A stretch of 33,988 bases of DNA from an uncultured Anaerolineae bacterium (GTDB taxonomy: Bacteria; Chloroflexota; Anaerolineae; Anaerolineales; Villigracilaceae), in the NCBI GenBank assembly GCA_903908605.1, contig CAIVSQ010000088.1, positions 1-33,988 of the forward strand, read 5' to 3'. Under the pieces are notes generated by a model. That model made no database searches, had not been told where the DNA came from, and saw only the letters and a program-made list of their open reading frames with translations. The position numbers were made by a program, and so were the translations under genes. Shown one piece after another: positions 3 through 28,681 of this stretch; within the stretch, counting starts at the first letter, position 1, and every line of letters begins with the position of its first letter.

Positions 3-1304
3 ACACCTGTCCCCCCCCCCGATGTTGCCCCCACCGCCACCCCGGAACCTGTCACCATCCGCTATGCTAACTGGAATCTGGGCACCGAAGAAGAGGATAA
101 TATTCAACGCCAGCTGATCAAGGCCTACATTGCCGCCAACCCGAATGTTACCGTTGAATTCGTTGACATGTCCGCCGAAGGCGGTTGGGATGCAGTCCTG
201 ACAGGTTATGCTGCCAAGGGCGAACTTCCCGATGTCTTCATGGCCAACAATGTCCCGCTGTATGTTAAGAACGGCTGGCTTGCTGACCTGAGCGATTATG
301 TAAAAGATGACGCCGACTGGAAAAGCGTACCCCAGGCACTCAAGAACGGTTTCACCTATTCTGGCAAGGTGATGGGTCTGCCCGCCGCCCAGTTCATTAT
401 GGGTTACTTCGTCAACAAGGACAAATTCGAAGCCGCCAACCTGGACGCCCCCGAATATGGCGTTTCTGTCGATGACTTCTTTACCGCCGTTACCGCGCTG
501 AACAACGTCCCCCAGGGCACTCTCGGGCTGGACGAAATGGAATTCGTAGGGGGATGGTACCCGAGCAGCCAGGACAGCAACCTGAAATGGTTCAGCTTCG
601 ATGGCGAAAAGATGAATTACAATTCTGCCGCCTTTAAGGCTGGTATTGCCAAGGCTGGCGAAATGAAACCCTACACCTGGCAGGGTCTCAGCGATGAACA
701 AAAGAAGAATTTCAAGTCCCAGGGCCCGTGGGAACTCTTCCTGAACCAGGAAGTTGGTGTTCGCTGGGATGCCTCCTGGGCTCTTCCGGATTACATCCAG
801 AAGGCCACCTTCAACTGGGACTTCATCGGCATCCCCGGTGGCAACCAGGCGCTGGTCTCTGACGTGATCGTTGTCTCCAAGACCGCCAAGAATGTTGATG
901 CTTCCTACCAGTTCGCCAAGTGGATGACCTACTCCACCGCAGCCTACGCCAAGGAAGCCGAACTGGCCAAGGCCAAGGGTTCCGCCCCCAAGATGCCCGT
1001 TTCTGTAGACGCAGCCTCACTCGATCTCTACAAGACCTTCGTCGACAAACCCGGCGTCCTTAAGGCTCTTGAAAACCTCGATAACAGCCTGGTCGAATCC
1101 CTCGCGAAAGTCATCCCCGGCTACATCAACGCCCGCTGGGAAGGCAAACCCGGCATTGACGTCGGTGAAGACAAAGATGTCAACATGTGGTATATGTTCA
1201 ACTTCGCTAATGAAGGTCGCTACAAGTACGAAGACTATTCGGCGAAACTGGAAGAATTTGCCAACAAGATTCTGGCCGATGCCCGGGCCGAGTTGAGCAA
1301 GTAA
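3..1304 (+). CDS. ABC sugar transporter solute-binding protein (5' end outside window)
   Basis: This is an extracytoplasmic sugar-binding protein of the ABC uptake family (SBP family 1), which would deliver a saccharide to a permease pair. The frame is open from base 3, so the signal sequence and presumed lipobox lie upstream; 433 residues are visible. The first visible residues form a Pro/Thr/Val linker, typical of surface-anchored binding proteins. The folded domain then begins at a strand reading [10 protein letters not shown], with the usual GELPDVFM segment and a C-terminal helix-rich lobe. The linker is partly encoded by a run of ten C. The gene stops at 1304, just before an intrinsic terminator. 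Binding proteins are often separated this way from their permease genes so that they are made in excess. I infer that it serves one of the downstream permease pairs. The exact sugar cannot be read from sequence. Confidence 0.88.
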
Positions 1305-1321
1305 TCCGCACGTAACACCAA

Positions 1322-1353
1322 GGGGCATTGCTTACCACAATGCCCCTTTTTTT
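1322..1353 (+). terminator. Intrinsic terminator after the solute-binding protein gene
   Basis: A perfect 9-bp stem (GGGGCATTG / CAATGCCCC, with a loop of about 7 bases) is followed directly by seven T. It lies 17 bases after the stop codon of the binding protein and 67 bases before the chosen start of the next gene. It probably ends most transcripts and lets a fraction through, which would set binding protein well above permease. No convincing promoter is visible between it and 1421, which favours read-through. Confidence 0.85.
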
Positions 1354-1420
1354 CTCTTTTCCAAACCAGTTCCATTACCCTACGCCTGGATATTTTCCCG
1401 GCAAATCGAAGAAACCAGCC

Positions 1421-4288
1421 ATGTCCTCCAGGTTGATCGCTTTTCTGAGATTATTCACCGCCCTTCTGCTCATCACGATGACGCTGCCTTTTTCACAGCG
1501 CGCCTCTGCGCGCCAGTTGGAACCACAACCGGTGCAGCAAACGGGCATAATCCAAATTCAGGCTGATGCATTTGGACGAACATTGGCCCAGGACGAAACA
1601 TCCAGCTTATACAGTGCACCAGCAGTGCTGCTGCAAATAGGGGAAGGCGTTTCATTCCAGGTAAACATACCTCAAGCCGGGTTGTACACAATCGCATTTG
1701 ACATGGTCGCTGGGACTGCCCTAAATCCACCCGAAGGGCAGCTAAAAATTGATGGCTCTTATCCTGTGCAGGATGCACGCCAGATCGTTTTCCCGCTTTT
1801 TTTCCAAAACAGTACAAACCAGTTTCCGCAGGATCGCTATGGCAACGATGCCCTCATCCGCCAGGTACGACGGCCTCTTTGGACAACAGTTGCCCTGCGA
1901 GATGCCAATCTCAGCCTGGAATACCCCATCAAGCTGCAAATCTCGCAGGGACAACATACTTTTGAGTTCAAAACGGCCAAAGCCGCCATGTACCTTGGCA
2001 ACGTAACCATCCGGGAATTCAGTGAATACCCGGCCTACAGTGCCTATTCCCAAGATAACCAGGTCCCCGACAGCTCAGGGGTTTTGATTGAACTACAAGC
2101 CGAATTCCCCACTTATAAAAATGACACCGCCATCCGTCCAGTTGCCAGTCGCAGCCTGTCGATTTCCCCCTACGATACAAACAAACTTCTTCTGAACACA
2201 ATCGGTGGTGAAAGCTGGAATGCAAGCGGCTCCACCGTTTATTATGAATTCACTGCGCCAGCAGATGGTATGTACCTGGTCACCCTGCGCGCCTTGCAAG
2301 ACACCCGCAACAACTTTACCGTCTTCCGCCGCATTACCATCAATGGCTCTGTCCCATTCGTTGAGCTCAACCAGGTCCCCTTCCCATACTCAACTGAATG
2401 GTCCAATGTTACCCTGGGCGGCGCAAAACCCTACAAGATCTTCTTGAAAAAGGGACTGAATGTACTGGGGATCGAAGCGACCAACTCTCCCTATCATTCC
2501 GCCATTGAAAAAATACAAAAGGCCATGGTCGACATCAATGACCTCTCGCTGGAAATCAAAAAGCTTACCGGCAATCAGGTGGATCGCTACAAAGAATGGG
2601 TCCTATCCGATTACATCCCCGATATCCGCGAACGCCTGTTGGCCATTGCTGATGATCTCGCCAGCGATAAGGAAATTCTGCTGGCCCTGAACGACAGCGG
2701 AGCCTCGCCGGAAATCCTTACCTACCAGATGGCCATCGACAACATCCGCTTCCTGGCGAATGACCCCGATAAGATTCCGGTCTATATGAACCGTTTCTCA
2801 CAAGGCTCGGGGTCAGCCGCCCAATTACTCGGCAACCTTCTTCCTGCCCTGCAAAGCCAGCCACTGGCCCTGGACAAGCTTTTCATCCACTCCCCTGACA
2901 GTCTGCCCGTCGAAAACAAGGTTTCGCTGTTCACCTCAATGGCAGAAAGCCTTAAGCGTTTTATCTACTCATTCCGACCGGATCCTTATCAATCCATTGG
3001 TGCCAGCTCAGATGAAATTGAAGTCTGGGTTAACCGTCCACGCCAGTATGTCGATTTGCTGCAAAGCATGACCGATAATACCTTTACCAAGGAGACCGGC
3101 ATCAAGGTTAAATTCTCCATTATGCCGGACGAATCCAAGCTGGTGTTGGCCAATGCCGCCGGCATTCAACCCGATGTTGCCCTGGGTGTCAGTACCAACA
3201 TCCCGTACGAACTGGCCATCCGCCACGCATTAAAAGATTTACGTTCCTTTGATAACTTTGATTCCTTCATTCACATTTATTCCCCTGGTTCACTGCTCAG
3301 CTACATTATCAATGACTCAGTCTATGCCATTCCCGAGACCCAGGATTTTTGGGTAACCTACTACCGCAAAGATATCCTCGATTCACTCGGGTTGCCTGTG
3401 CCAAAGACCTGGAACGAAGTGTTGGAAATTCTACCCGAACTGCAGCGGTACGGCATGAACTACAACACCGCACTCTCCAGTGGCAGCGGTTTGAAGGGCT
3501 ACCTGGTGACAGCGCCCTACCTTTTCAACTACGCCGCGCCCCTATACAACCCGGACGGATTTTCAACCGGCCTGGGCAGCGAAGAAGCCATCAACGCCAT
3601 CAAGTTCATGGCCGAAAGTTTTACCATCTATGGCATGCCGCTGACCACCTCCAGTTTTTATGACAGCTTCCGCTATGGCAGCCTGCCCGTTGGAATCTCC
3701 AATTTTGAGACTTATATAAAGCTCGTCACAGCCGCCCCGGAGCTCAATGGTTTATGGGGCATCGACCTTTACCCGGCAACCACCCTGCCGGATGGCACCC
3801 AACTACGATATGCCACCGGGTCCGCACAGGCCAGCCTGATGTTTGCCAACACAGACCGCCCAGACGATTCCTGGAAGTTTATGAAGTGGTGGATGTCGAC
3901 CGGAACCCAGGTGGAATTCCAGGAACAGCTTATCTTGAATTACGGACCGGAATACTTGTGGAATTCCGCCAATCTTGAGGCCTTCCAGTACCTGCAGATT
4001 CCGGATGAACACAAACGCGTCATCCTTGAGCAGTGGCAGTGGATGCAGGAACCGGTCAAACTGCCAGGCAGCTATATGCAGGAACGCGAGCTTAGCAATG
4101 CCTGGAATAAAATTGTCTTTGACGGGGTCAACCCACGTGTGGCCATCGACAGAGCCATTATCATCATCAACCGCGAAATCACACGCAAGATGGAAGAATT
4201 TGGATATCTAGAAAACGGAAAAAAGATAAAAGAGTTCAAAATCCCGACGATTGAAACAGTTAAAAGGTGGATGGATAATGCCAAATAA
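1421..4288 (+). CDS. Carbohydrate-binding-like / ABC solute-binding fusion protein
   Basis: This secreted protein of 955 residues is twice the usual length of a binding protein. An earlier in-frame ATG at 1328 lies inside the terminator stem, so the ATG at 1421 is preferred; it begins a clear signal peptide ([22 protein letters not shown]). Two beta-rich segments follow, at about 43-215 and 221-360. They resemble CBM6/CBM35 or galactose-binding jelly-rolls: each starts IQADAF or IELQAEF, and each has a strand like [13 protein letters not shown] mostly helical linker spans about 361-530. From about 531 to 940 there is a complete SBP family 1 domain ([44 protein letters not shown]). No lipobox is seen. 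The gene overlaps the next permease by 11 bases. I infer a polysaccharide-docking subunit for the first permease pair. The SBP call is secure; the jelly-roll assignment is by eye. Confidence 0.82.
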
Positions 4289-5201
4289 GGACACGCTCCA
4301 ACGCTGGTTTACCAGGGAAGGCAATGCCTATCTCTTCCTCGGGATGTACGCGCTGTTATTCATAACCTTCATCGTCGTGCCCGTGCTGGTAGCATTTTTC
4401 CTATCTTTTACCTTTTTTGACACCATCCAATTACCCACCTTCACTGGCCTAAAAAATTACATTGTCCTGCTTACTCAGGATGATGTTTTTATGAAATATG
4501 TGTTACCCAACACCATCCAGTTCGCAGTCATCGTTGGCCCTGGCGGCTATGTGCTTTCGTTTTTCCTGGCATGGGTGCTCGCTCAACTTCCTAAAATTCC
4601 ACGCACACTCTTCGCGCTGATCCTCTACTCGCCCTCCATGACCTCTGGCGTGGCCATGGCAGTGGTTTGGAAGACCCTCTTCAGCGGTGATCAAAATGGT
4701 TACCTTAACAGCTTCCTGTTGGAATGGCGCCTGATCCAGGAACCGGTCCAGTGGCTGCAATCACCCCAGGCTCTCATGCCCATCATGCTGATCGTCACCT
4801 TATGGAGCAGCATGGGCATCGGTTTCCTGGCCATGCTGGCCGGTATTTTGGAGATTAACCCAGAGATGTACGAAGCCGGCAGCCTGGATGGAATCAGCAC
4901 CCGCCTGCAGGAAATTTTCTACATTACCATCCCATCTATGAAACCACAAATGCTGTTTGGCGCGGTCATGGCGATCGTTTCCACCTTCCAGGCTGGTGCC
5001 ATTGGCGTAACCCTCTCGGGTGCCAATCCCACCCCACAGTACGCCGGGCAATTAATTGTCAATCACATTGAGGACTATGGCTTTTTGCGGTATGAAATGG
5101 GCTACGCCGCAGCGGTTTCGGTGGTGCTTTTGTTCATGGTTCTCTTTTTTACCCGGCTGGCAAATAAATTATTCGCCAGCGATAACGAGGTGAACTTATG
5201 A
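4278..5201 (+). CDS. ABC sugar transporter permease, MalF type (pair A)
   Basis: This integral membrane subunit of a carbohydrate ABC importer has 307 residues and about six hydrophobic segments. The ATPase-docking EAA loop starts near residue 199 and reads [20 protein letters not shown], a variant of the usual EAAxxDGA form in which two small residues are changed. An ATG at 4251 is possible, but the ATG at 4278 has a good ribosome site (AAAGGTGG, 7 bases upstream) and removes residues that do not look like a permease N-terminus. It overlaps the preceding fusion gene by 11 bases and shares ATGA with the next permease, so the three are translationally coupled. It would form a heterodimer with that next protein. 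Confidence 0.92.
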
Positions 5202-6103
5202 AAAAACGATGGTTCCAACGTGTCTCGGGTATACGAAACAACGGCATCAACCCACAGGGTTTTCACATCAGCCAGCTCAAGTTCTATATCCTGCTGCTGC
5301 CCCTGGCAGTTTTCATGCTGTTACCAATCGTCTTTATTTTTTCGCACGCATTCAAACCACCAGATGAACTCTTTGCCTACCCACCGCGCTTTTTTGTAAT
5401 CAACCCAACAATCAAGAATTTTAGCAACCTTTTTTCAAAGATGTCCACCTCAGGCGTGCCTGTCAGTCGCTACCTGTTCAATAGCGTGTTAATCACGGTC
5501 GTCACAGTCGCTTCCTCTATTCTTGTCTCAAGCACAGCAGCTTACGCACTCTCCAAGAAACGCTTCTCTTTAAAAAAGACCCTCTTTGCCATCAACACCG
5601 TGGCCCTCATGTTTGTGCCTATCGCAGTTACCATCCCGCGCTTCTTAATCATCCAAAAAATGGGATTGATCAACACCTTCCTGGTGCATATCCTGCCAGG
5701 TCTGGCCATGCCCGTTGGGCTCTTCCTGATCAAACAGTTCATCGACGGTATTCCCGATGAGGTGGTGGAAGCCGCCCAAATCGACGGTGCTTCAGATGTT
5801 CGGATTTACTGGCGCATCATCCTGCCCATGATCCGGCCTGCCATTGCCACAATCGCCATCCTGACATTTCAGGCGGCCTGGAATAACGCGGATATTTCGA
5901 CTCTCTACATCAACAGCGAGAGTCTTAAGACTTTCGCCTTTTACCTGGGCACGCTCACCTCCACCACATCAGGCGCCAACCTGGTGGCGGGCCAGGGCAT
6001 CGCCGCAGCAGCCTCGTTGATTATGTTTCTCCCCAACTTGATATTTTTCATCCTGCTGCAAAGCCAGGTGATGAGCACCATGTCACACTCGGGTCTTAAA
6101 TGA
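5198..6103 (+). CDS. ABC sugar transporter permease, MalG type (pair A)
   Basis: This is the second transmembrane subunit of pair A, with 301 residues. After a short cytoplasmic N-terminus it has about six membrane segments. The EAA loop is canonical and begins at residue 191 ([20 protein letters not shown]). The start is fixed by an ATGA overlap with the previous gene and by GAGGTGAA just upstream. The stop overlaps the start of the NHL/Yip1 gene, so transporter and accessory protein are coupled. No nucleotide-binding subunit is encoded nearby. A multifunctional ATPase of the MsmX/MsmK kind elsewhere in the genome is therefore the likely partner; that is inference. Confidence 0.93.
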
Positions 6104-8124
6104 TGAAACGCGCCCTGCGGATTAGCCTGCTCATAACCCTGCTGGCCCTGGTGTTCATAAAAGGAGCCGCACCGGTCCTGGCCGAATCGCCCTATACCAC
6201 TTGGGCACCTGGCCCAGGCGGTTACCTGTATTTCACCCAGGATGCCTACACCCCATCGACTGAGATTGACCTGCCCATCTCGGGTGCGGAGGATATGTTC
6301 GTCGCCCCGGATGGCATGCTCTACATCGCCGACACCGGCAATGGGCAAATTCTCAAGCTGGATAGCCAGCGCCAGGTGGTTGCCACACTCGGCAAAGGCG
6401 CCCTGGGTGGCCCAACTGGTGTATTTGTCGATGAAGAGGGCCTTGTTTATGTGGCCGATGGACAGAAAAATACCGTTGTAGTTCTTAATCCCGACGGCAG
6501 CTTGAAAAAAGAATTTGGTCATCCAAGCGAGCCGCTCTTTGGAAAAAACCGGGAATTCCTGCCACGCAAAATAGCGGTTGATAAACGCAAAAACATTTAC
6601 ATCGTCAGCGAAGGCTCGGTCAACGGCATCGTCCAGCTTAACACGAATGGCAACTTCATCGGTTACTTCGGCGCAAATTCCTCGCAAATGTCGATCAAGA
6701 TGATCCTGCAAAGAATGTTCCTGACCAAAGATCAGCTGGAACAATTCATCAAAAATGAGGCCGCTTCCCCCTCCAACCTTGCAATTGACCAGCAATCGAT
6801 GATTTACACCATCACCGCCGGCACATCGCGCTCAAAAAGCATACGCAAATTCACCATCTCCGGCAAAAACATATTCCCAGACGCTTACGGATCAGCCACC
6901 TTTCGCGATATTGATATCAGCCCCAATGGACTGATACTGGCGGTCGATGCCAATGGACGTATTTACGAATACGACCTGGACGGCGCACTACTGTTTGTCT
7001 TTGGCGCCAAGGACAAGGGCGACCAGCGGCTAGGCACACTCACCAATCCAACAGCAATAGAACGTGACGGTGAGTTCATCTATGTTCTGGACAAAGAAAA
7101 AAACGCCATTGTTGTATACCAAACCACCGCCTTTGCCAGAAAGGTTCATGAAGGCATCCGGTTATATATGGAAGGTTTCTATACCGAAGCCAGCCCGTCC
7201 TTCCAGGAAGTCTTAACCTATAACGGTTCCTACATTATGGCTTACCAGGCCATCGCAGACGCGTATTACAAGGCTGGCGATTACATCAACGCATTGAGTG
7301 CGTTTCGCTACGCCGAAGACCGCGAAGGCTATTCTCAAGCCTTCTGGGAACTACGCAACCAGGTTTTGCAACAACACCTGGCCAATGCCTTCATCGGCTT
7401 GTTCGCGCTCTGGGCAGTACTGAGCATCGGGGGTCGACTGGAACGACGTTATCGTTGGTTCGACCCGCTGCGTAAATCGATGGGCGACTTGCAAAATATC
7501 AAGCTAGTGGATGACTTTGTCTTTCTTTTCCGCTTTATCAAGCAGCCAGCCGATAGCTTTTACTACATAAAGAAACGCCAGCACGGCAGCCTGCTTTTCG
7601 CCGGAATCATCTTCCTGTGGGTACTGATCGTTCGCCTGCTGACATTGTACCTAACCGGGTTCAGCTTTAACCCAAACCTCTCCCCCGCTTATATCCGCGT
7701 GGAAAACGAAGCACTTTACGTTATCATGGCCCTCTTCCTGTGGAACACGGCCAACTTCCTGGTTTCAACCGTCAACGACGGTGAAGGCCGCGTGCGGGAC
7801 GTGGTGATCGGCAGTGCATACAGCCTGTTTCCATACGCACTCTTCGCCCTGCCCATCGCCCTGGTCTCCAACATCCTGACCCTCAACGAAGCCTTTCTCT
7901 TCTCCTTCTCAACCTTCCTGATGTGGTGCTGGACCGCGATTATGTTATTCATCATGGTCAAGGAAATTCACAATTACACTGTCCAGGAAACCATCCGCAA
8001 TATCCTGCTTACGATCTTTACCATGGCAATGTTCGTCCTGACCGGCTATATCCTGTACGTCCTCTTTAACCAACTGTATGACTTTATCCTGGCTATCATT
8101 CAAGAAGTGGGGCTGCGTGGCTAA
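6100..8124 (+). CDS. NHL-propeller / TPR / Yip1-like membrane protein
   Basis: This 674-residue protein has an unusual architecture. A signal peptide ends near residue 28. Residues about 55-340 contain NHL-type propeller blades, with repeats of the kind [19 protein letters not shown] and [19 protein letters not shown]. Residues about 345-420 form a TPR-like helical pair ([32 protein letters not shown]). A membrane helix at about 428-446 is followed by a basic stretch ([15 protein letters not shown]), which places that side in the cytoplasm. Residues about 470-665 are a polytopic Yip1-like domain. The propeller and TPR should therefore sit outside the membrane, anchored by the Yip1 part. Its position between two permease pairs implies a structural or adaptor role in the uptake machine, for example clustering binding proteins or holding the glycan; that is inference. 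The domain calls are good, the function is unknown. Confidence 0.8.
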
Positions 8125-10306
8125 ATTAACCCGAATCTTGCATGTATTCTTCATCCTGGGGCTGGTATTGATGGCTTTTTACCCCAAACACATGGCATTT
8201 GCCTTGCAGGAAAAATCCCCTATTAATCCAGCGGAAGGAATGCCAGAATCTTACAAACAGGTGGCTGAAAACAAGCTGTTCATCCTGTATGTCGACGAGG
8301 AGGCACTCTCCTTCAATGTATTGGACAAACGCAGCGGCTACCTCTGGCACTCAAGCCTGGACGAAACCATCAAGACCGACCGGCTAAATAAATCCTGGAA
8401 GGCGTTCGCGCGCAGCGGATTGAGCATTGAATACCTCGATCCCAAGGCCGTAAATAAACGCATCTCGATCACCAACTCAACCCATCAAGTTAAGGTTCAA
8501 AACATCGATCACGGCATCTCAGCCGAAGTTAAATTCACGGACTTTGGCATCACCGTTGGGATCAACATCCAATTGGAAGACAACGGTGTCAGCGTGGAAG
8601 TCCCTTCCGCCTCCATCAAGGAAGAAAACCCGGATTTCAAACTCGGCCTGATCTACATCCAGCCATTCCTGGGTGCCACCCGCGCCGACAGTACGCTTGG
8701 TTATATGCTTATCCCGGATGGATCTGGCAGCCTCATCCGTTACACGGCGACCACCAAGGCCAAGAATATGTTTTATGGCCGCATTTATGGGCCAGACCTG
8801 GGCATGATCTCCTCGCTGCCCTGGGACCCGACCATCACGCGACCCTACCAGGTGTCTGTGCCGGTCTACGGTGTGCAGCATGGAGAGAAACAAAACGCCT
8901 TTGTCTCAATCGTGGAAAAAGGGGCCTCGTATGGCGAAATCCAGGCGCATCCATCCGGGATCATCACCAATTTCAACTTCATCTATAATGCTTTTGTCTA
9001 CAATGAAAGCTATTTCCAGGCCACCAACCGCTCGGGAGCGGGTGTCACCACACTGCAGAAGGAAACCAACCAGTTCGACATCAAAATTCATTATCGCTTC
9101 CTGACCGCCGAGATGGCTGACTATGTTGGTATGGCCAGGAGTTACCAGCAGTACCTGTTGGAACAAGGCATCCTGAAAAAGAACAAGGACCAGGGAACCG
9201 ACATCGGCATTCGCCTGGAATTTTTGGGAGGCGACAAAGAGCGTGTGCTGTTCTGGGATCGCCTGATCCCGATGACGACTGTCACACAGATGAGCAATAT
9301 CCTGCACGATATGCGCAGCCTGATCACGAATACAGATGTGGTTTATTATGGCTGGCAACCACTCGGCGCCGCCAGCATGCCACCCACCAGTATGAAACTG
9401 GATGCCACCTTGGGCAGCCTGGCCGATTTGCGCAAAATGGCTCAGGAAATAGCAGCGGGAGGTGGGCGGTTTTATCTCTATCTTGATCCCCAGGCTGCCG
9501 TTTGGCACGAATCCGGCTATTCTCCGCGCAATGACCTGGCCATGTCTATCACAAAGACCAATCTGGATTGGTACAACCGCTACAAAGCCAATTATTACTT
9601 CAATCTCGAAGCCCTCTCACCGCGCTTCACCAACCTACGAGAGTCTGTTTTCAAAGAGCTTGGTACGGGCCTGGCCCTGGATGGTATCGGCTACACGGCC
9701 TACAGCGATTTCAAAAATGGTCACCTTATTAACAGAGAAGGTTCCATCCACGCTTACCAGGAACTGCTGGCAAAAACCAAGACCCCCACACCCTTTTATA
9801 TTCCAAATGATTATGCCTTTGGCTCCATGAGCGCATACTACGACATGCCAATCAGCAGCAATGGCTATATCTACACATCCGAATCAGTCCCCTTCCTGGA
9901 AATCGTCCTGGCGGGCTGCGTGCCTTATTACGGTCCGGCGCTGAATTTCTCTTCCAATTTACGCGAGGACCTGCTACGCCAGGTGGATTACGGCGTCTAC
10001 CCGGCATATTTTCTCAGCCAAGAAGTGACCGCCCGCATCCTGAACACCAGCTCATCCTGGATATACACATCCTCCTATGCCCAATGGAAAGAAGAGATCC
10101 ACCGCACCTACCAGTGGATGAACAACCTGTTAAGCCCGGTGAGGGGACAGGAAATTGTTGCCCGGCAAACACTTGCCCAGGGTGTGTCAGCCACTACCTA
10201 TGCCAACGGCAGGCAGATCATCGTTAATTACAACGACAGCCCCATCCAGATCAAAGGGGTGTCGATCAACGCCAAGGACGCCGTGATATTGGAGGTGCAG
10301 CCGTGA
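8117..10306 (+). CDS. DUF5696-like secreted protein, possible glycoside hydrolase fold
   Basis: I recognise this as a DUF5696-type protein from the segment [15 protein letters not shown] (about 195-208) and its overall layout; no function for the family is known to me. The preferred start is the GTG at 8117. It has a purine-rich ribosome site (AAGAAGTGGGG) and opens with a signal peptide ([21 protein letters not shown]); an in-frame ATG at 8078 would put 13 extra residues before it. This gives 729 residues. The N-terminal half (about 30-380) is beta-rich, like the supersandwich domain of several hydrolases. The C-terminal half looks like a TIM barrel with acidic residues at strand ends: D522 in [11 protein letters not shown], plus the segments [22 protein letters not shown] and [11 protein letters not shown] small beta domain ends the protein. 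It overlaps the preceding gene by 8 bases and shares GTGA with the next permease. It could be an enzyme or a glycan-binding scaffold. Confidence 0.75.
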
Positions 10307-11193
10307 ACCTGCGCAAGATGTTTATTCGCAATGAAATGCGGCACAGTACGCGTGAAGCTCTGTATGGCTACGCCTTTGTGCTGATCTGGATGATTGGGTT
10401 TGCTTTATTTACCGCCATACCACTGGTGCAAACTTTTAATTACAGTCTCAACCAGGTGACCGTCGAAGCCACCGGCATCAAGCTCGAATTCTTACAATGG
10501 CAAAACTACTCCCGGGCTCTCTTCACTGACCCTTCCTTTGTTGAGCTGCTAATCGGTTATGTGGTGGAGATCCTGGTCTCGGTGCCAATTGTTTTGATAT
10601 TTTCCTTGATCATCGCCCTGTTTCTCAACCTGAACTTCTCATTGAAGGGCTTGTTTCGCACCATTTTCTTTTTACCGGTGGTGATTACCAGTGGACCTGT
10701 TATCCAGGAGCTGACCGCCCAGGGCGCAACCTCGGCACCTGGCATCGCCAAATCAGTAGCGGTCACCGAATTCCTGGCCCAACTTCCACGCTACCTGCGC
10801 AATCCGGTCGAATACTTATTGACGTCTTTCATCCTGATCCTGTGGTTCTCAGGGGTGCAGATCCTGATCTACCTGGCCAGCCTGCAAAAAATTGATAAAA
10901 ACATCTACGAAGCGGCTGCCATCGACGGTGCCTCACCCTGGGAAGCTTTTTGGAAGATTACGCTGCCCTCCCTCTCCACCACCACCTTGGTCAACGCAAT
11001 CTACACCATTATCACGCTATCACATTTTTCCGAAAACAAGGTCATTAAGTATATCTACGGCCAGACTTACGCAGTGGAAGGTGGCATCGGTTATGCCAGC
11101 GCAATGTCGTTTATTTATTTCAGCGCCCTGGTAGCATTGCTGGTCATTTTTTACCTGTTACTCGGCCTGCGGGATCGTAAGAATGCCGATTAG
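10303..11193 (+). CDS. ABC sugar transporter permease, MalF type (pair B)
   Basis: This is the first subunit of a second carbohydrate permease pair, 296 residues with about six membrane segments. The EAA loop starts at residue 203 (EAAAIDGASPWEAFWKITLP). Translation is taken from the GTG at 10303. It has a near-perfect ribosome site (GGAGGTG, 5 bases upstream) and forms a GTGA overlap with the DUF5696 gene; the ATG at 10318 lacks such a site. It differs clearly in sequence from the pair A subunits, so the two pairs are not a recent duplication. No ATPase gene accompanies it. Confidence 0.92.
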   Translation: MNLRKMFIRNEMRHSTREALYGYAFVLIWMIGFALFTAIPLVQTFNYSLNQVTVEATGIKLEFLQWQNYSRALFTDPSFVELLIGYVVEILVSVPIVLIFSLIIALFLNLNFSLKGLFRTIFFLPVVITSGPVIQELTAQGATSAPGIAKSVAVTEFLAQLPRYLRNPVEYLLTSFILILWFSGVQILIYLASLQKIDKNIYEAAAIDGASPWEAFWKITLPSLSTTTLVNAIYTIITLSHFSENKVIKYIYGQTYAVEGGIGYASAMSFIYFSALVALLVIFYLLLGLRDRKNAD

Positions 11194-11203
11194 GAGACTT
11201 ACC

Positions 11204-12133
11204 ATGAAAAACATCAACCTGGACAGTCTCAAGGGTTTTTTATTTGGCAATCGCAGTAGTTATGGGTTGGTCTTTACGATCGTTTTGTACCTGCTGTTAA
11301 TTGCAATCGGTTTTGTGTACCTCTATCCGCTGCTCTTCATGTTAGTAACCAGCCTGAAAAGCCCCGAGGATTTACTCAACCCGATGGTTCAATGGGTGCC
11401 TACCCAAATTTATACCGGCAATTACGAACGCGCCTACCACGTACTCGACTACCCCAATACGCTTCTATCCTCGATAATGATTAGCGTGATCCCATCGCTG
11501 ATCCAGACTGTGGTTTGTTCATTGGTCGGTTACGGGCTGGCGCGCTACCGCTTTTGGGGTAAAAACCTGCTGATTATGTTGATCCTGGCAACCTTCATCA
11601 TCCCGGCTCAAAACACTATCATCCCACAAATGCTCACCTACAAGAGTTTTGGTTTGCTCGGCAATATCTTCTCGCTCATCCTGCCAGCCCTGTTAGGCCA
11701 GGGACTGAAGAGTGCCATCTTCATCCTGATTTTTTACCAGACCTTCCTTTCCTTGCCCAAGGTACTCGAAGAAGCCGCGCGCCTGGATGGCGCATCTGAC
11801 TTAAAAATCTTCACCAGTATTGCGCTGCCCTCGGCCATCCCTGCCTTTGTCATCTCAATCATCTTTTCCATCGTCTGGTATTGGAACGAGACCTACATGA
11901 CCGTCATCTTCCTGGAAGGCGGTGTGCAGACACTACCGATGCAACTTTCCAAGTTCGTGCAGGCCTATGAAAATCTCTACCCGCCCGGAGTAGTCAATAT
12001 CTTCGATCGGCTAAATGAGGCTGTCAAGCTGAGCGGAACTTTTCTAAATATCCTTCCGCTCCTGTTAATGTATTTTGTTCTGCAAAAATGGTTTGTTGAA
12101 TCAATCGAAAGGTCAGGCATCACCGGTGAATAA
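11204..12133 (+). CDS. ABC sugar transporter permease, MalG type (pair B)
   Basis: This is the partner of the preceding permease, 309 residues with about six membrane segments. The EAA loop begins near residue 190 (EAARLDGASDLKIFTSIALP). The ATG at 11204 is chosen because AGGAG lies 7 bases upstream; an ATG at 11183 is in frame but overlaps the previous gene without a ribosome site. It is 10 bases downstream of the pair B MalF-type gene and overlaps the following lipoprotein gene by 8 bases. The second transport channel and the surface glucanase-like enzyme are therefore made together. Confidence 0.92.
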   Translation: MKNINLDSLKGFLFGNRSSYGLVFTIVLYLLLIAIGFVYLYPLLFMLVTSLKSPEDLLNPMVQWVPTQIYTGNYERAYHVLDYPNTLLSSIMISVIPSLIQTVVCSLVGYGLARYRFWGKNLLIMLILATFIIPAQNTIIPQMLTYKSFGLLGNIFSLILPALLGQGLKSAIFILIFYQTFLSLPKVLEEAARLDGASDLKIFTSIALPSAIPAFVISIIFSIVWYWNETYMTVIFLEGGVQTLPMQLSKFVQAYENLYPPGVVNIFDRLNEAVKLSGTFLNILPLLLMYFVLQKWFVESIERSGITGE

Positions 12134-13526
12134 ATTTTTCAACCTTCTGTTTGTGACCGTCCTACTGCTATCCGGCTGCGCAACCCCGGCTTCCACCCCT
12201 GCAGCGACTGAGCTTATCCCAGTTACACCCTCTCCTTCACTCCCGCCTACTCAGACGGTTGTGCCCAGCGCCACCCCTACCCTGGCGCCTACCGCCACCG
12301 CTACGGCTACCGCCACACCAATTCCCGCCAATATTGACGAAGTCACAGCCTTCGAGATGAAGGGTGCCTTTGATTTCTTCTGGGAAAAAGCCAATACCAC
12401 CAGTGGCAGCCCGGGTTACGGCCTGATCCGCGATCGTGAACCCGGATCAGAAGGTATTGCCAGCATGGCATCGGTCGGGTTTGGCCTGAGCGCTTACACC
12501 ATTGGGGTAGAAAAAGGCTACATCACCAAGCAGGAAGGCTATGAGCGCGCCAACCAAACCATGGATACCCTGTTGGCGATGGATCGCATGGAAGGGTTTT
12601 ATTATCACTTTGTCGACATGCAGACCGGCAAGCGTGCCTGGGAGAGTGAAATCTCCAGCATAGACTCGACCATCCTGTTCATGGGCGTACTGACCGCCGG
12701 GCAGTACTTCGGTGGCGACGTTGAAACCAAGGCCATGAAAATCTTTAATGGTGTCAATTGGCCCTGGTTTATCGACCCAGACCGCAATATGTTCTACATG
12801 GCCTACCGCCCCGAGAAAGGCTTTGAGGGGCACTGGGATTTTTACGCCGAACAACTTATGATGTATGTCCTGGCCGCAGGATCAGATACCCACCCGGTTG
12901 ATGATTCCCCTTATTACACATTCACACGCCACAAGGCAGCCTATGGCGATGGCAAGCCCTTCATTCACTCCTGGTTTGGCTCAATCTTCACCTACCAGTT
13001 CAGCCACGCCTGGATCGATTTTCGCGGGCTGACCGATAAGGAAGGTGTTAACTGGTTTGACAACTCAGTCGAAGCCACCCTGGCCCACATCAACTATGCC
13101 ACGGACAAGCAGAAAAAATACAAAACCCTCGGTCCCAATTCCTGGGGTCTTTCCGCCTGCGACAGCCCTGACGGATATAATGGAACCTACGGCGCCCCGC
13201 CGTCCGGGTTCGATAACAATTCCCATTCCGTGGACGATACCATACCTCCTTATGGAGCAATTGGTTCGATTCTCTTTGCGCCCGAACAAGCCAAAAGCGC
13301 CATGGTTCACTATTACTCTTTCGAAAAATTAAAGGGCAAATACGGCTTCAAGGATGCTTATAACCTATCCAAAAACTGGTTCGATACGGATGTAATCGGA
13401 ATCGATAAGGGTGTTTCCTTGCTGATGCTGGCCAACGCCGAAAACGACATCGTTTACAAGATCGTCATGAATAATAAAACCATCCTAAATGGATTGAAAC
13501 GACTAAAAATCAACAAGAACCAATAA
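12126..13526 (+). CDS. GH144-like (glycoamylase-domain) surface lipoprotein
   Basis: The likely start is the GTG at 12126, which gives a short lipoprotein signal ending in the lipobox LLSGC with Cys18 as the lipid anchor; starting at the ATG at 12075 would bury it. Residues about 19-75 are an Ala/Thr/Pro linker. The rest matches the glycoamylase-like family (PF10091) that includes GH144 endo-beta-1,2-glucanases. Recognisable segments are IASMASVGFGLSAY, EISSIDSTILFMG, AEQLMMYVLAAGS, VNWFDNS and SWGLSACDSPDGY. Total length is 466 residues. All of these recur in the paralogue at 14528. I infer that it cuts a polymeric beta-glucan at the cell surface and supplies oligosaccharides to the permeases. 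The fold call is strong; the exact linkage is inferred from family membership. Confidence 0.85.
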   Translation: MNKFFNLLFVTVLLLSGCATPASTPAATELIPVTPSPSLPPTQTVVPSATPTLAPTATATATATPIPANIDEVTAFEMKGAFDFFWEKANTTSGSPGYGLIRDREPGSEGIASMASVGFGLSAYTIGVEKGYITKQEGYERANQTMDTLLAMDRMEGFYYHFVDMQTGKRAWESEISSIDSTILFMGVLTAGQYFGGDVETKAMKIFNGVNWPWFIDPDRNMFYMAYRPEKGFEGHWDFYAEQLMMYVLAAGSDTHPVDDSPYYTFTRHKAAYGDGKPFIHSWFGSIFTYQFSHAWIDFRGLTDKEGVNWFDNSVEATLAHINYATDKQKKYKTLGPNSWGLSACDSPDGYNGTYGAPPSGFDNNSHSVDDTIPPYGAIGSILFAPEQAKSAMVHYYSFEKLKGKYGFKDAYNLSKNWFDTDVIGIDKGVSLLMLANAENDIVYKIVMNNKTILNGLKRLKINKNQ

Positions 13527-13538
13527 GAAAGTGGTCCA

Positions 13539-14531
13539 ATGGTAACAATCAAAGATGTGGCAAAACTTGCCCATGTCAGTATTACGTCAACTTCGTACGC
13601 GCTGAATGGCACCGGAACAATCAGCAACGCAACGCGTAAACGCGTCCTCGAGGCGGCGGAGACTCTTAACTATCACCCCAATGCCTTTGCCAGGAACTTA
13701 AAAAACCGTCGGTCCTACACAATCGGTGTATTCATCACCAGCTTTGGTGGCTCGTTCTTCGACGAAATCTTGGAAGGTATCCGCGATGCCATCAAGAAAA
13801 CCGAATATGAATTGATTGTTTGCCCGGAGACCCGCTCGATTCGAAAAATACTGACACAACGCCAGGTGGATGGAGCCATCATCTTCGACCGTAAAATAAA
13901 AAGCGAGATTATCCTCAAACTAGCCTCCGACCGCTTTCCGATAGTCGTGATGGATCGTCAATTGGATGCCGACTTCGTTCTGCCGCTCTTGATGGACAAC
14001 GATCGCGGAACGCGTGAAGCCTTTTATCACCTCTATGACCAGGGCGCCCGCCGGATCACCTGTATTTGGGGCGTGGATGATTCGTTTGACAACCATGAAC
14101 GCAAACAGGTATTCCTGGAAGAGGCGCAAAAGAACAATATTAGCCTGCAAACCTACACCGGCAACTTTACCGAGATCTCTGGCTATGAAATCGGTAAAAT
14201 CATCCTAGCGGATGAGATACTGCCAGAAGCTGTCTTTTGCGCCAATGATCAGATGGCAATTGGTCTCATCAAGGCCATCAAGGAACACAAGCTGCGGGTA
14301 CCCGAGGATATTGCCGTGGTGGGCTTTGACGATATCCTGGTTGCATCCGTAATGCAACCCACCCTTTCCACGGTCGGGATTTCACGCTTCTTATGGGGAA
14401 CCTTGGCTGTCAGCCAGTTGGTTGACTTTCTAATAGATGAAAAACCTTTCCAAACCCAGCGAATTCCTACCCGGCTGATCCAGCGGGAATCTTCGCGTAT
14501 GTCAAACAATCAGCAAGAGGGAAACGCGTGA
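13539..14531 (+). CDS. LacI-family transcriptional regulator
   Basis: This 330-residue LacI/GalR-type repressor begins with the DNA-binding helix-turn-helix (VTIKDVAKLAHVSITSTSYA) and a hinge around residue 50-58. A periplasmic-binding-protein-like sugar-sensing domain follows, with typical segments AVFCANDQMAIGLIKAIKEH and DIAVVGFDDILVASVMQP. It lies within the operon, 12 bases after the surface GH144-like gene and sharing GTGA with the next enzyme gene. It would therefore be made whenever the locus is on and could repress it in feedback until an oligosaccharide inducer appears. No convincing LacI operator was found in the window; the main promoter is probably upstream of base 1. Confidence 0.92.
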   Translation: MVTIKDVAKLAHVSITSTSYALNGTGTISNATRKRVLEAAETLNYHPNAFARNLKNRRSYTIGVFITSFGGSFFDEILEGIRDAIKKTEYELIVCPETRSIRKILTQRQVDGAIIFDRKIKSEIILKLASDRFPIVVMDRQLDADFVLPLLMDNDRGTREAFYHLYDQGARRITCIWGVDDSFDNHERKQVFLEEAQKNNISLQTYTGNFTEISGYEIGKIILADEILPEAVFCANDQMAIGLIKAIKEHKLRVPEDIAVVGFDDILVASVMQPTLSTVGISRFLWGTLAVSQLVDFLIDEKPFQTQRIPTRLIQRESSRMSNNQQEGNA

Positions 14532-15763
14532 GCAATTTCGATACCCGCAAAATACTGGAAGATGAGATTAGCGGCTCTGTAAATTTTTTCCTGCATTCTA
14601 CCAACCTGGACCCCGCAAGCCAGGGATACGGCATGGCCATTGACTGCAGCAACCAGCCCGGGGTGGCATCCATCGCCTCGGTCGGCTTTGCCCTGACTGC
14701 CTGGGTGATCGCTGCCGAACGCGGCATATTGAGCCGTGAACACGCCCTGCAGATCACCCGCAAAACACTGTATACGCTTCTCCATCACGCCAGCCATCAT
14801 CGCGGCTTTTTCGCCCACTTTCTGGAAATGGACTCCGCCAAGCGAATCGGCAGATGTGAATACTCCACAATCGACACCTCGCTGTGCTTGAATGGGGTCA
14901 TTACCGCCCAGGCCTACTTCCAGGATCAGCAGGTTTCAGACCTGGCCCAAGAAATCCTGGACAGGGTGGATTGGAAATTCCTGATCTTTGAAATGGATGG
15001 GCGCACACTTTTTCACATGGCCTACAACCCGGATGCGGATGGAGATTATTCCCAGGGCAACCCGGGCTATATTTACCAATGGGAGATGGCCGCCGAACAG
15101 AAGATGATGTACCTGCAAGCTGCCACCCAACTGGACCCAGGCACTGCCCGCAAACTCTACCAGGGCTTCGCACGTGACCTGGGAGAATTTGAAGGCCAAA
15201 AAATCATTATTAACCCCGGTGGCAACCTGTTCGCCTATCACTTCAGTGAAGCCTGGTTGGATACGGCCAGTTATCTCGACCCCGATGGCGTGGATTGGTT
15301 CAACAATTCCCGCCTGGCAGGACTGGCCAACCGGGCCTTCTGCATCCAGCACGCTGGTCAGTTCAAGAGCTATGGCCCCGATAGTTGGGGCTGCAGCGCA
15401 GGCGACAGTCCGTGGGGCTATGACGTTTCCGGTAGCACACCCAACCTGAACCCTTCCCAACCGAATGGTACGGTCTCTATTTTCTCCGCGTTGTCCTGCC
15501 TGCCATTTATGCCTGCCGAAACCCTCTCCTTGCTGGCGGCCCTGCTAAAAGATCACCCGCAAACCTGGGGACCCTATGGTTTTTATGATTCTTATAACCT
15601 GGACGTCGAACCGGCCTGGTACAGCAGCTCACTATACGGTATCAACAAAGGCTGTTCGATGATCATGATTCAAAACTACCTGGATGGCATGGTTTGGAAG
15701 ACATACACCAACAGCACATTGATTCAAAAGGCCCTGTCCATACTCGAATTTACCCGTCGTTAA
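14528..15763 (+). CDS. GH144-like (glycoamylase-domain) enzyme without export signal
   Basis: This 411-residue enzyme has the same PF10091/GH144-like domain as the lipoprotein at 12126. Equivalent motifs are IASIASVGFALTAW, EYSTIDTSLCLNG, AEQKMMYLQAATQ, VDWFNNS and SWGCSAGDSPWGY. It starts at a GTG overlapping the LacI stop, with AAGAGGGA upstream. There is no signal peptide and no linker, so it should act in the cytoplasm on imported oligosaccharides. Keeping both an outer and an inner member suggests different chain-length preferences or modes of attack. Linkage specificity is inferred, not proven. Confidence 0.85.
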   Translation: MSNFDTRKILEDEISGSVNFFLHSTNLDPASQGYGMAIDCSNQPGVASIASVGFALTAWVIAAERGILSREHALQITRKTLYTLLHHASHHRGFFAHFLEMDSAKRIGRCEYSTIDTSLCLNGVITAQAYFQDQQVSDLAQEILDRVDWKFLIFEMDGRTLFHMAYNPDADGDYSQGNPGYIYQWEMAAEQKMMYLQAATQLDPGTARKLYQGFARDLGEFEGQKIIINPGGNLFAYHFSEAWLDTASYLDPDGVDWFNNSRLAGLANRAFCIQHAGQFKSYGPDSWGCSAGDSPWGYDVSGSTPNLNPSQPNGTVSIFSALSCLPFMPAETLSLLAALLKDHPQTWGPYGFYDSYNLDVEPAWYSSSLYGINKGCSMIMIQNYLDGMVWKTYTNSTLIQKALSILEFTRR

Positions 15764-15773
15764 GGAGCGAAGC

Positions 15774-18095
15774 ATGCCAAAGTTTTACACTCAAGACGGT
15801 CAATTCTGGCTGGATGAACAGCCTCTCTTAATCCAGGCCGGGGAACTACACTACTTTCGCATACCACCCGACCAGTGGCGGCACCGCTTGGGCCTGCTGC
15901 AGGCGGCTGGATTCAACACACTCGCCACCTACATCCCCTGGCTCTGGCACCAACCCGAAATTGGCGCGTTTGAACTGGCTCCGTCTGACCTGGACGGTCA
16001 CAGCCACCCGATGCGCGACCTGGCAGGCTTTCTTGACATGGCCACCGAGATGGGCTTCCTAATCATCGCCCGCCCTGGCCCTTACATCATGGCCGAAACG
16101 ATCAATGAAGGCATTCCCCCCTGGGTCTTCAACACCTACCCGCAGGCCGCTTTCATCAGCCAGGACGGGCAAACCCAGAACATCGCCAGCTACATGCACC
16201 CGGACTTCCTGGCCTGCGTACGTTCGTGGTACCGGGATGTTTTCAAGGTGCTGACACCGCGCCAGGTAACATGCGGGGGCAATATCATCATGGTGCAGCT
16301 CGATAACGAAATGGGCATGATCCCCTGGGTCCGCAATATCATCGACACCAATCCCGATACCCTCGCCCATTTTGCCACCTACCTGGAGAAAAACCAACCC
16401 GGGCATCTGCCTGCCGGGCGGGAGAACGCGCTGCGCGATAGCCTGACCAACCCTCATGACCCGGTCGACGCATTAATCCTGGAAGATTACCGTCGTTTTT
16501 ACCGGACCTACCTGCGTGAATACACCACCTTTTTATTAAAAGAAGCACGTGCCTGTGGCTTGGAAGTGCCACCCGTCGTCAATATTCACGGGTTTGGCAA
16601 CGGCGGAAAGACTTTCCCGATCGGTCTCTCCCAACTGGCTGAAGTGATTGCAATCGACGGCATGCTCAGTGCCACCGATGTGTACCCCATGTTTATCGGG
16701 GAAGGTAATTTTCAGCAGCTACTGTTAGTCAATGAGATGACCCGCACCCTGCAAAACCCGCAGCAAGCACTTTTCTCGATCGAATTTCAGGCGGGTGGCA
16801 ACCTCGATTTTAGCGGCGCACAGTCCTCTTTTTACGATCTGCACACGCGCCTGTGCATCTCAGGTGGCATGCGCGCCATCAATCATTACTTGTTTTTCGA
16901 TGGCGAAAATCACCCAGTGCTCAGCCCAACCAAGCGCCACGACTGGGGTCACCCGGTCCGCAAGGATGGCAGCACCCGCAGCCACTACCCGCGCTACGGC
17001 CAGCTTTCCAAGGTGTTGGCAGCTTATGGCACAGACCTGGTCACCGCTCTGCCAGAGACAGTCACCACCATCGGGTTCTTGTTGGATCACTACATGACCG
17101 AGATCAACCACGCCCAGACCCACGAACAAACCAACATCATCACCCATCAACGTGATGTAATCAATTTTGACTTCCTGGCACGTGGATTGGCGATAACACA
17201 CCGTCCATTCAACGCACTGGAGCTCAGCCGTACCCGGCTGGATGCCCGTCAAACCCCGCTGTGCTGGGCGATGATGGAAAGACAATGCGAAGCTGCCACC
17301 CAACAAATGCTGGTGAATTACCTGCACTCCGGCGGGCGACTCGTGCTGGTTGGACGAATGTGCCAGGAGGATTTCGCACACCAACCCTGCAATATTTTGA
17401 GCGACGCCATCGGAATCACAACCATGTCCGGCGGGCAGCCGTTTAGCGGTGAATTAATTCATATCTTCGAGACAAACGACATACCAGCCTCCTTCGTGGA
17501 GGGCTACCAGGGTGAGTTTGATGAAGTATTTGCCTGGCGGGAAAACGGCGAAGCTTGTGGAATTGTGAAAACAATTGGCAAGGGTCAATTACTGCTGCTG
17601 GGGGCAACCCTGGCAGCCAACACCCTGGCTGACCTGGATGTTTTTGAGCACATAGCCCGCAAAATGGAGTGTTTGCCCCTGTTTGAACTCTCCAGTTGGG
17701 CCGATGTTCGCCTCAGCCGCGGGCCAGGCGGCGCGTTCCTGTATATCAACAATTACCAGGAGGAGCCCATCCAAACCAGCGTCGCCTATGCCGGCCAGCC
17801 CCTATTTGCTGGTCAGGCGCTGCGCATCCCTGCCCGGCGCGGCCTGATCCTACCCCTCGATTGGCGACCAGACCCGCGAGTCCTGATTCATTATTGCACC
17901 GCAGAGGTGCAGCAAATCACCGAAGATGCGGATGGGCTCAGCATCCATGCCAGCCAGCCTGATTTTTCCGCCGAACTAACCCTGAACGGGCTGAATTGTC
18001 CCGGAGCCCAACTGTTAACCGAAACAGACCACTGGCGCCGTATGCTGGTGCATGCCACGGCTGGGGTAATCCGTCTTTCACGTTCCATTCCATAG
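15774..18095 (+). CDS. Glycoside hydrolase family 35 enzyme (beta-galactosidase family)
   Basis: This 773-residue protein has the GH35 catalytic barrel. The substrate-pocket start is GELHYFRIPPDQWRHRL (residues 23-39). The acid/base glutamate is probably E179 in QLDNEMG and the nucleophile E337 in FSIEFQAGGN. A beta-rich C-terminal half follows. There is no signal peptide, so it is cytoplasmic. Canonical GH35 beta-galactosidases read NEYG at the acid site; here it is NEMG, which hints at altered specificity. I recall that a GH35 member from Ignavibacterium album acts on beta-1,2-glucosidic links. With two GH144-like genes next door, a role on beta-glucosidic oligosaccharides is at least as likely as galactosidase activity. 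The start has GGAG 7 bases upstream. It is the last gene of the long run, 5 bases from a convergent gene. Confidence 0.87.
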   Translation: MPKFYTQDGQFWLDEQPLLIQAGELHYFRIPPDQWRHRLGLLQAAGFNTLATYIPWLWHQPEIGAFELAPSDLDGHSHPMRDLAGFLDMATEMGFLIIARPGPYIMAETINEGIPPWVFNTYPQAAFISQDGQTQNIASYMHPDFLACVRSWYRDVFKVLTPRQVTCGGNIIMVQLDNEMGMIPWVRNIIDTNPDTLAHFATYLEKNQPGHLPAGRENALRDSLTNPHDPVDALILEDYRRFYRTYLREYTTFLLKEARACGLEVPPVVNIHGFGNGGKTFPIGLSQLAEVIAIDGMLSATDVYPMFIGEGNFQQLLLVNEMTRTLQNPQQALFSIEFQAGGNLDFSGAQSSFYDLHTRLCISGGMRAINHYLFFDGENHPVLSPTKRHDWGHPVRKDGSTRSHYPRYGQLSKVLAAYGTDLVTALPETVTTIGFLLDHYMTEINHAQTHEQTNIITHQRDVINFDFLARGLAITHRPFNALELSRTRLDARQTPLCWAMMERQCEAATQQMLVNYLHSGGRLVLVGRMCQEDFAHQPCNILSDAIGITTMSGGQPFSGELIHIFETNDIPASFVEGYQGEFDEVFAWRENGEACGIVKTIGKGQLLLLGATLAANTLADLDVFEHIARKMECLPLFELSSWADVRLSRGPGGAFLYINNYQEEPIQTSVAYAGQPLFAGQALRIPARRGLILPLDWRPDPRVLIHYCTAEVQQITEDADGLSIHASQPDFSAELTLNGLNCPGAQLLTETDHWRRMLVHATAGVIRLSRSIP

Positions 18096-20737: not shown

Positions 20738-20843
20738 CCTTACTAATTTCCCTGCGAAAATACAAACCTGCCGCATGGGTCGAAGTATTTTCCCACCTTT
20801 CTGCCCGACCGGCAAGACAGCTTGGTTTTTAAAAAATCCCTTA

Positions 20844-20872
20844 TTGACAAATTGCTTGAGAATGCCTATATT
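20844..20872 (+). promoter_or_regulatory. Sigma70-type promoter of the TetR-led cassette
   Basis: A consensus -35 TTGACA (20844-20849) is separated by exactly 17 bases from a -10 TATATT (20867-20872). Transcription would start near 20879, about 36 bases before the TetR start codon. The surrounding sequence is markedly AT-rich. It lies in the gap to the divergent transporter gene. Confidence 0.75.
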
Positions 20873-20878
20873 ACTTAA

Positions 20879-20899
20879 TATCATTAACTTTAGTGAATA
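20879..20899. promoter_or_regulatory. Imperfect inverted repeat, possible TetR operator
   Basis: The arms CATTAA (20882-20887) and TTAGTG (20890-20895) match as an inverted repeat at five of six positions. They lie at the predicted transcription start, where a TetR dimer would block the promoter. The repeat is weak, and AT-rich sequence gives such matches by chance. Confidence 0.3.
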
Positions 20900-20914
20900 C
20901 CCTTTACTTTTATC

Positions 20915-28642: not shown

Positions 28643-28681
28643 AGATTTCACCTTGCAAGATCAAGCACACCCTGGCAGCCA

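Follow-up and report, generated by a model that had tools for sequence, protein, structure and literature searches.

A widespread seven-gene unit with two predicted ABC permease pairs, seen in a putative beta-1,2-glucan locus of an Anaerolineae bacterium

The 33,988-nucleotide stretch of DNA analyzed here (the window) is the entire contig C88 of an uncultured Anaerolineae bacterium, whose source assembly comprises 5.77 Mb in 612 contigs. Between positions 3 and 18095 it carries twelve genes, all on one strand as judged from the list of open reading frames (ORFs) and a Pfam scan, and every one of the twelve that an initial annotation had listed as a single co-oriented run was found there. On balance we favor the view that this run carries, in a form for beta-1,2-glucan, a seven-gene glycan-import unit of wide occurrence, in which two CUT1-type ATP-binding cassette (ABC) importers are joined by two non-standard proteins. 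The core unit comprises, in one run, a large solute-binding protein (SBP) designated SBP2f (1421-4288 on the + strand, as for all genes of the run; longest ORF from 1328), the pair A permeases PermA1 (4278-5201; ORF from 4251) and PermA2 (5198-6103), a membrane protein with NHL propeller, TPR and Yip1 parts (6100-8124), a DUF5696 protein (8117-10306; ORF from 8078) and the pair B permeases PermB1 (10303-11193) and PermB2 (11183-12133). Across the run, Pfam matched SBP_bac_1 twice, BPD_transp_1 four times (in the four permeases), NHL together with Yip1, DUF5696 (580 bits), LacI and Glyco_hydro_35, and two proteins matched Glycoamylase PF10091, which we take to be the Pfam family that includes glycoside hydrolase family 144 (GH144; other families are named likewise). 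The TPR_2 match in the NHL/Yip1 protein lies below the Pfam cut-off.

All seven genes are present in both copies of the unit in the window's own genome (2/2). The second copy, on contig C127, shows a LacI gene and a separate SBP, then the seven genes in order, and then a putative glycosyl hydrolase-like protein, and the two full-length SBP2f matches in this genome fall one in each copy. With SBP2f as the anchor, we collected 82 loci, namely the best 80 of at least 579 relatives in species genomes, a choice biased toward the lineages of the query, together with two plasmids. Genes were labeled with hidden Markov models trained on Chloroflexota loci, and gene order was scored by domain placement, not by ORF starts. 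The seven families are complete in 73 of the 82 loci, the remaining 9 being interrupted by contig ends, and the order is exact in 71 of the 73; of the other two, L084 has an extra permease upstream and L085 has two blocks swapped. NHL and Yip1 reside in a single gene in 34/70 relatives and in two genes in 36/70.

The same arrangement was obtained from the other end of the unit with DUF5696 as the anchor. The sampled phyla were Chloroflexota (400 genomes) and Bacillota (398 genomes), besides 14 well-known control genomes and a plasmid collection, with at most three candidates scored per genome against the curated cut-off. Matches were found in 46/400 Chloroflexota genomes (33 over the cut-off, 29 with long strong matches) and in 46/398 Bacillota genomes (39 over the cut-off, 37 with long strong matches), the Bacillota giving 58 strong places overall and two or more in 12 genomes. 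None of the 14 control genomes held DUF5696 over the cut-off, with sub-threshold matches in Thermotoga maritima and Lactococcus lactis, and the unit may have been overlooked for this reason. In Chloroflexota, 23 loci were taken from 23 of the 28 other long-match genomes (two being left out because they lay on contigs of <4 kb and three because they came from a genus already sampled); all seven genes are present in 18 of them, and contig ends interrupt the remaining 5 (L039, L048, L053, L056 and L065). The unit is absent from all four Chloroflexota places with weak DUF5696 matches (L061-L064). In Bacillota, where 40 loci were hand-picked from the 58 strong places, the series Yip1/NHL-DUF5696-PermB1-PermB2 occurs in 40/40 loci and all seven genes are complete in 31/40 (26 in the exact order, 5 swapped). 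A further locus, L210, retains the usual order with PermA2 broken in two pieces; about 1.6 kb, possibly an inserted element, separates these pieces (3562-6420). Yip1, DUF5696 and the permeases thus stand together in every examined uncut locus with a full-length DUF5696, and the similar Paenibacillus neighborhoods that the initial annotation had pointed to do exist, including a plasmid copy. Two annotated plasmids, one from Paenibacillus cellulosilyticus and one from Butyrivibrio fibrisolvens, carry the genes in the same order, NHL and YIP1 being encoded separately in the second, and as independent queries DUF5696 and SBP2f retrieved the identical 2 records among 72,556 plasmids. Chance clustering was rejected because two different anchor genes and the shared plasmid records agree, and a conserved multi-part unit across many Chloroflexota and Gram-positive bacteria is strongly supported.

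The run holds the binding-protein and permease parts of a CUT1 importer twice, CUT1 being the class of these carbohydrate ABC importers (MalEFG, UgpABCE type): an SBP_bac_1 protein with two BPD_transp_1 permeases is found twice by Pfam. The nearest NCBIfam models of the permeases are UgpA/UgpE, MalF/MalG and GlcT/GlcU, every one under its cut-off. Because EAA-type loops were found in all four permease families (strict pattern in 76/81 PermA1, 70/81 PermA2, 60/73 PermB1 and 45/74 PermB2 proteins), coupling to an ATPase is probable for both pairs. The window contains no ATPase gene; in its own genome four MalK OB-fold matches lie outside the window, of which three stand together on contig C130 and two pass the cut-off; elsewhere, ugpC adjoins the plasmid copy and ATPase-like proteins of 368-390 residues lie upstream of five further loci. 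The predicted structure of SBP2f (predicted local distance difference test (pLDDT) 86, predicted template-modeling score (pTM) 0.81) begins with an N-terminal helix, after which come strand-rich regions at about 100-260 and 289-385, then a helical part and finally the SBP domain. The fusion to carbohydrate-binding-like domains that had been proposed for this protein agrees with these two regions of the model, on which it rests, but it has no Pfam match; the 50 listed fold matches span about 400-520 columns, a length that corresponds to the SBP domain, and are uninformative on the strand-rich regions.

Several observations weigh against the seven proteins working as one. Eight of the 40 Bacillota loci are without SBP2f-PermA1-PermA2 in the examined stretch, and although a contig end limits the stretch in five of these, that is not so for L194, L197 and L202; each genome of L194, L196, L197 and L202 has 4-6 SBP2f genes elsewhere. 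Blocks A and B are swapped in six loci (L085, L205, L212, L215, L221 and L222), which means that the halves are separable blocks, and this swapping is compatible with two modules as well as with one machine. Tree comparisons (FastTree as the single method, with 200 resamplings of 98 loci for the separate-SBP difference) fit partly with two importers, A (SBP2f with the PermA pair) and B (the separate SBP with the PermB pair): the tree of the separate SBP is closer to that of PermB than to that of PermA (0.721 versus 0.594; difference 0.079 to 0.175), and the DUF5696 (0.050 to 0.115) and NHL (0.011 to 0.079) trees also lean toward PermB. The SBP2f tree leans to neither pair (-0.028 to 0.018), and the pairing of SBP2f with PermA therefore rests on adjacency. 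The highest correlation of all is that of NHL with DUF5696 (0.911), which favors the proposed scaffold. The evidence for a physical surface assembly that would dock and trim a polysaccharide, as the initial annotation suggested, consists of conservation and co-evolution. The swapped or separated blocks, the separate SBP following PermB and the EAA-type loop usual in all four permease families are also what would be seen if two ordinary independent importers, e.g. for short and for long oligosaccharides, shared an operon, with Yip1/NHL and DUF5696 forming a glycan-sensing or quality-control unit of their own and not a scaffold. We regard this arrangement as rather unlikely, since the near-invariant Yip1-DUF5696-PermB linkage, usually with both pairs and across two phyla, exceeds what two such importers would need.

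The link of the enzyme set to beta-1,2-glucan is supported by the solved relatives of GH144, GH35 and SBP2f. Downstream of PermB2 lie a GH144-like enzyme whose signal sequence is of the lipoprotein type, identified by Pfam only and presumably extracellular (12126-13526; ORF from 12075), a LacI-family regulator (13539-14531; Pfam), a second GH144-like enzyme that lacks an N-terminal signal and is presumably cytoplasmic (14528-15763), and a GH35 enzyme (15774-18095). The best solved relatives of the inner GH144 are BDI_3064 (5.5e-33), XCC2207 (7.5e-31) and the endo-beta-1,2-glucanase 5gzh (3.5e-30), some further ones carrying the label putative glucoamylase. For GH35, which occurs in 7/61 genomes of the window's family with its own counted, the best is the beta-1,2-glucosyltransferase 7vkw (5e-60), i.e. 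IaSGT of Ignavibacterium album according to PMC8861115, followed by the exo-beta-D-glucosaminidase 5gsm (6.9e-49). By sequence, the SBP domain of SBP2f is closest to Lin1841, a binder of beta-1,2-glucooligosaccharides (3.5e-14), and a beta-1,2-glucooligosaccharide binder also ranks 2-4 among the fold matches listed, which are sugar-binding proteins of a general kind. SBP1, the stand-alone SBP_bac_1 protein at the head of the run (3-1304), has 22hh as its closest solved structure (E 6e-210), and a 61-residue piece of 22hh is identical at 61/61 positions to the SBP1 of locus L044 and at 41/61 to the window's own. Within Chloroflexota, SGL of Chloroflexus aurantiacus (Chy400_4164) has been used for making beta-1,2-glucooligosaccharides (PMC12102758). 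By relationship only, the window thus joins GH144 to a protein that would bind oligosaccharides and to another enzyme of beta-1,2 specificity, and its enzyme set probably degrades beta-1,2-glucan. On the other side, the nearest NCBIfam model of GH35 is exo-beta-D-glucosaminidase, far under cut-off, the top fold match listed for SBP2f is a cycloisomaltooligosaccharide binder, the entry name of 22hh leaves the ligand of SBP1's relative unstated, and it is from relatives only that we infer the substrate.

The lineage of the unit is also tied to these enzymes. GH144 neighbors occur at 13 loci, including three in Bacillota (L133, L137 and L199), and the complete ones among them, 12 loci drawn from two phyla, group as a single clade in 7/7 gene trees and in the concatenation (1.0). 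Support for this clade is 1.0 for SBP2f, 0.998 for PermA1, 1.0 for PermA2, 0.998 for NHL, 1.0 for DUF5696 and 0.995 for PermB2, with weak support in the PermB1 tree (0.541). Because the GH144-linked loci form one clade in every gene tree, the core unit seems to travel together with its enzymes, between phyla too.

The model of the DUF5696 protein, from an alignment of 57 rows (pLDDT 89, pTM 0.90), matches the GH129-like 3,6-anhydro-D-galactosidase 5opq (E 5e-36, TM 0.65/0.72) and also NagBb and GH101 enzymes, and its profile matches the sequences of NagBb and ZGAL_3152 (E 2.8e-15 to 9.3e-15), so that the protein is predicted to have a GH129/GH101-like fold. The catalytic residue of these enzymes is Asp435 in NagBb and its equivalent Asp486 in ZGAL_3152 (PMC5698469). 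Nearest to it in the window protein is D535, at a predicted strand end, the placement being approximate, with the profile alignments ending just before it. This position is Asp in 10/12 members of the GH144-linked clade, and among 106 others it is Asp in 15%, Arg in 24%, Glu in 21% and Ser in 11%. Because the position varies in this way across the family, we infer that DUF5696 is mostly a glycan-binding pseudo-glycosidase, with activity possible in the GH144-linked clade; a role as trimming enzyme in most members is unlikely, and the scarcity of Asp among the 106 others also disfavors a plain GH129 enzyme. A GH129 search of 151 Chloroflexota and 149 Bacillota genomes returned one match over the cut-off, and none was used for aligning residues. 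DUF5696 might instead be an active glycosidase of a new family, trimming or uncapping the glycan at the membrane, as the fold and profile match, the Asp of the GH144-linked clade at D535 and, in 12/12 of its members, at D470 and D544, and the frequent Asp at D544 (82%) and Asn at N577 (83%) among the 106 others would allow; given how rarely those others have Asp nearest the GH129 catalytic residue, subject to the approximate placement, we consider this improbable.

An N-terminal hydrophobic helix is common to most DUF5696 (68/74), SBP2f (74/82) and NHL (73/79) proteins, and these three are for that reason probably anchored or exported; the DUF5696 of the window, with such a helix, would be extracytoplasmic. 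Extra hydrophobic helices past residue 80 were seen in 3/74 DUF5696 proteins of the SBP2f-anchored set, and the DUF5696 of L059 (9186-11636, - strand) has a hydrophobic insert visible in the alignment. A Yip1-family protein acting with an ABC transporter has a precedent in YknW, which modulates assembly of the ABC complex YknWXYZ of Bacillus. That system serves peptide toxin efflux, and the available portion of its description (PMC4887032) mentions neither an NHL domain nor a binding protein. The company of a Yip1 protein with an exporter, together with the unusual presence of two permease pairs per unit, could hint that the second pair exports a surface glycan or signal. Since both pairs match BPD_transp_1, a family of binding-protein-dependent transport permeases, and binding proteins accompany the unit, export seems to us very improbable indeed.

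The genes beside the unit vary. The commonest flanking family in the nearest flanks of 120 loci is the separate SBP_bac_1 protein, with 70 members at 55 loci, and over the whole examined stretch a separate SBP is present in 98/118 unique full loci, which favors two importers. Other family representatives are an AraC regulator, a GntR/LacI-like regulator, a Gfo/Idh oxidoreductase, GH43 with CBM6, GH26 with CBM35, GH28, GH3, GH43 with lectin domains, GH2, GH10, GH42 and a GH144-type protein. Because the enzymes differ so widely (GH144/GH35, GH43, GH26, GH28, GH10, GH42), the unit looks like a general glycan-import chassis serving many glycans. Against the reading favored here stand the 20/118 loci in whose examined stretch a separate SBP was not found, including ten Chloroflexota of L049-L060, and the Paenibacillus plasmid copy (L068), for which no glycosidase is annotated in the stretch examined and whose substrate may be other than a plain glycan. 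On that plasmid (NZ_CP054609.1, 7957-30658), four LLM-class flavin oxidoreductases and two more binding proteins come after the unit.

Within the window, SBP1 and the 5' side of the run are truncated by the contig start. Between SBP1 and SBP2f lies a hairpin (1320-1348, + strand) of 11 pairs with a T-rich tail, probably a partial terminator or an mRNA-stabilizing stem, where 75 folded bases give -17.7 kcal/mol. The TTG start of SBP2f at 1328 falls within it, and ATG 1421 is the likelier start. A hairpin after SBP1, of differing sequence, is seen by eye in 8/9 GH144-linked loci (the exception being L043), only some having a T-run. On account of this terminator-like hairpin, SBP1 is probably expressed separately from, or at a higher level than, the rest of the run. 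The overlaps of 4-11 bases described in the initial annotation hold at eight junctions, given internal starts at 4278, 8117 and 12126 (with the longest ORFs instead, three of the eight become larger). Between SBP1 and SBP2f the hairpin probably splits expression, which for this one junction counts against the unsplit run that the initial annotation's reading needs. Sigma-70-like matches are fewer than in shuffled sequence (9 versus a mean of 15.4, standard deviation 4.3), and on these numbers a split of the run into separate operons was rejected. Terminator-like matches are somewhat above the shuffles (26 versus a mean of 19.7, standard deviation 4.1), that at 1320-1348 being the richest in G-C pairs. 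Downstream of the run, Pfam identifies a GH43 gene on the opposite strand. Two further ORFs on the - strand match nothing in Pfam or NCBIfam at E 0.01: one of 442 residues with several hydrophobic stretches and a probably internal start (19808-21136), and one of 344 residues adjoining a GH31 gene (27617-28651).

Sus systems of Bacteroidota are defined by the TonB-dependent transporter SusC together with SusD. The window resembles them in coupling glycan capture, cutting, import and regulation in one locus, but the suggestion of a Sus-like answer was not upheld, and a Sus-type locus was rejected, because no match to SusC/SusD or a TonB-dependent receptor was found in the 20 window proteins scanned (Pfam, E 0.01). 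Compared with CUT1 importers, which share SBP_bac_1 binding proteins and BPD_transp_1 permease pairs, the unit has two permease pairs, Yip1/NHL and DUF5696 as fixed members, and a large SBP2f (about 950 residues) that includes two additional strand-rich regions, and the window is without an ATPase gene. DUF5696 is like GH129 and GH129-like enzymes (NagBb, ZGAL_3152) in fold and by a distant profile match, and differs from them in the non-conserved position nearest the catalytic Asp and in its linkage to ABC permeases. The beta-1,2-glucan cluster of I. album (PMC8861115) contains two GH144, GH35 (IaSGT) and a Lin1841-like binding protein, a combination that recurs in the window. Relative to this cluster and that of Listeria innocua in the same paper, the window adds the seven-gene import unit, and its 20 scanned proteins give no GH94 or GH3 match, a GH94 match being present on contig C605. 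The name DUF5696 occurs in zero papers of the open-access library searched, a scope outside which most subscription papers and preprints lie, and for Yip1/NHL with an ABC transporter or permease nothing describing such a unit was found there. Judged from that library, in which we found no paper on it, the seven-gene unit appears to be undescribed in print, although a relative of SBP1 already has a solved structure (22hh); what would be new is CUT1-type importers enlarged by a second permease pair and two fixed partners.

In the working that we propose for the window, the secreted lipoprotein GH144 would cut the glucan outside the cell; SBP2f, tethered to the membrane, would hold chains with its two sandwich-like regions and feed the PermA pair, and SBP1 would deliver the oligosaccharides so released to PermB1 and PermB2. 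The NHL/TPR/Yip1 protein would act as a membrane organizer and DUF5696, related to glycosidases but mostly inactive, as a glycan binder, the two together keeping both importers side by side. Import would be powered by MalK-type ATPases encoded elsewhere, the cytoplasmic GH144 and GH35 would complete oligosaccharide breakdown, and the LacI protein would sense the product. We put forward tentatively the stronger proposal that the seven proteins are one membrane machine of an undescribed glycan importer class in Chloroflexota and Gram-positive bacteria, with two ABC importers, a Yip1/NHL scaffold and a glycosidase-derived DUF5696 binding platform, which would keep a polysaccharide or long chain at the membrane, hand pieces between its two importers and be retuned to other glycans by exchanging enzymes and the small binding protein. 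If the unit is one machine, it would show how monoderm-type bacteria capture and import polysaccharides, give a role to several unnamed gene families and provide a marker by which bacteria of the rumen, soil and hot springs could be searched for glycan loci and the substrates of these.

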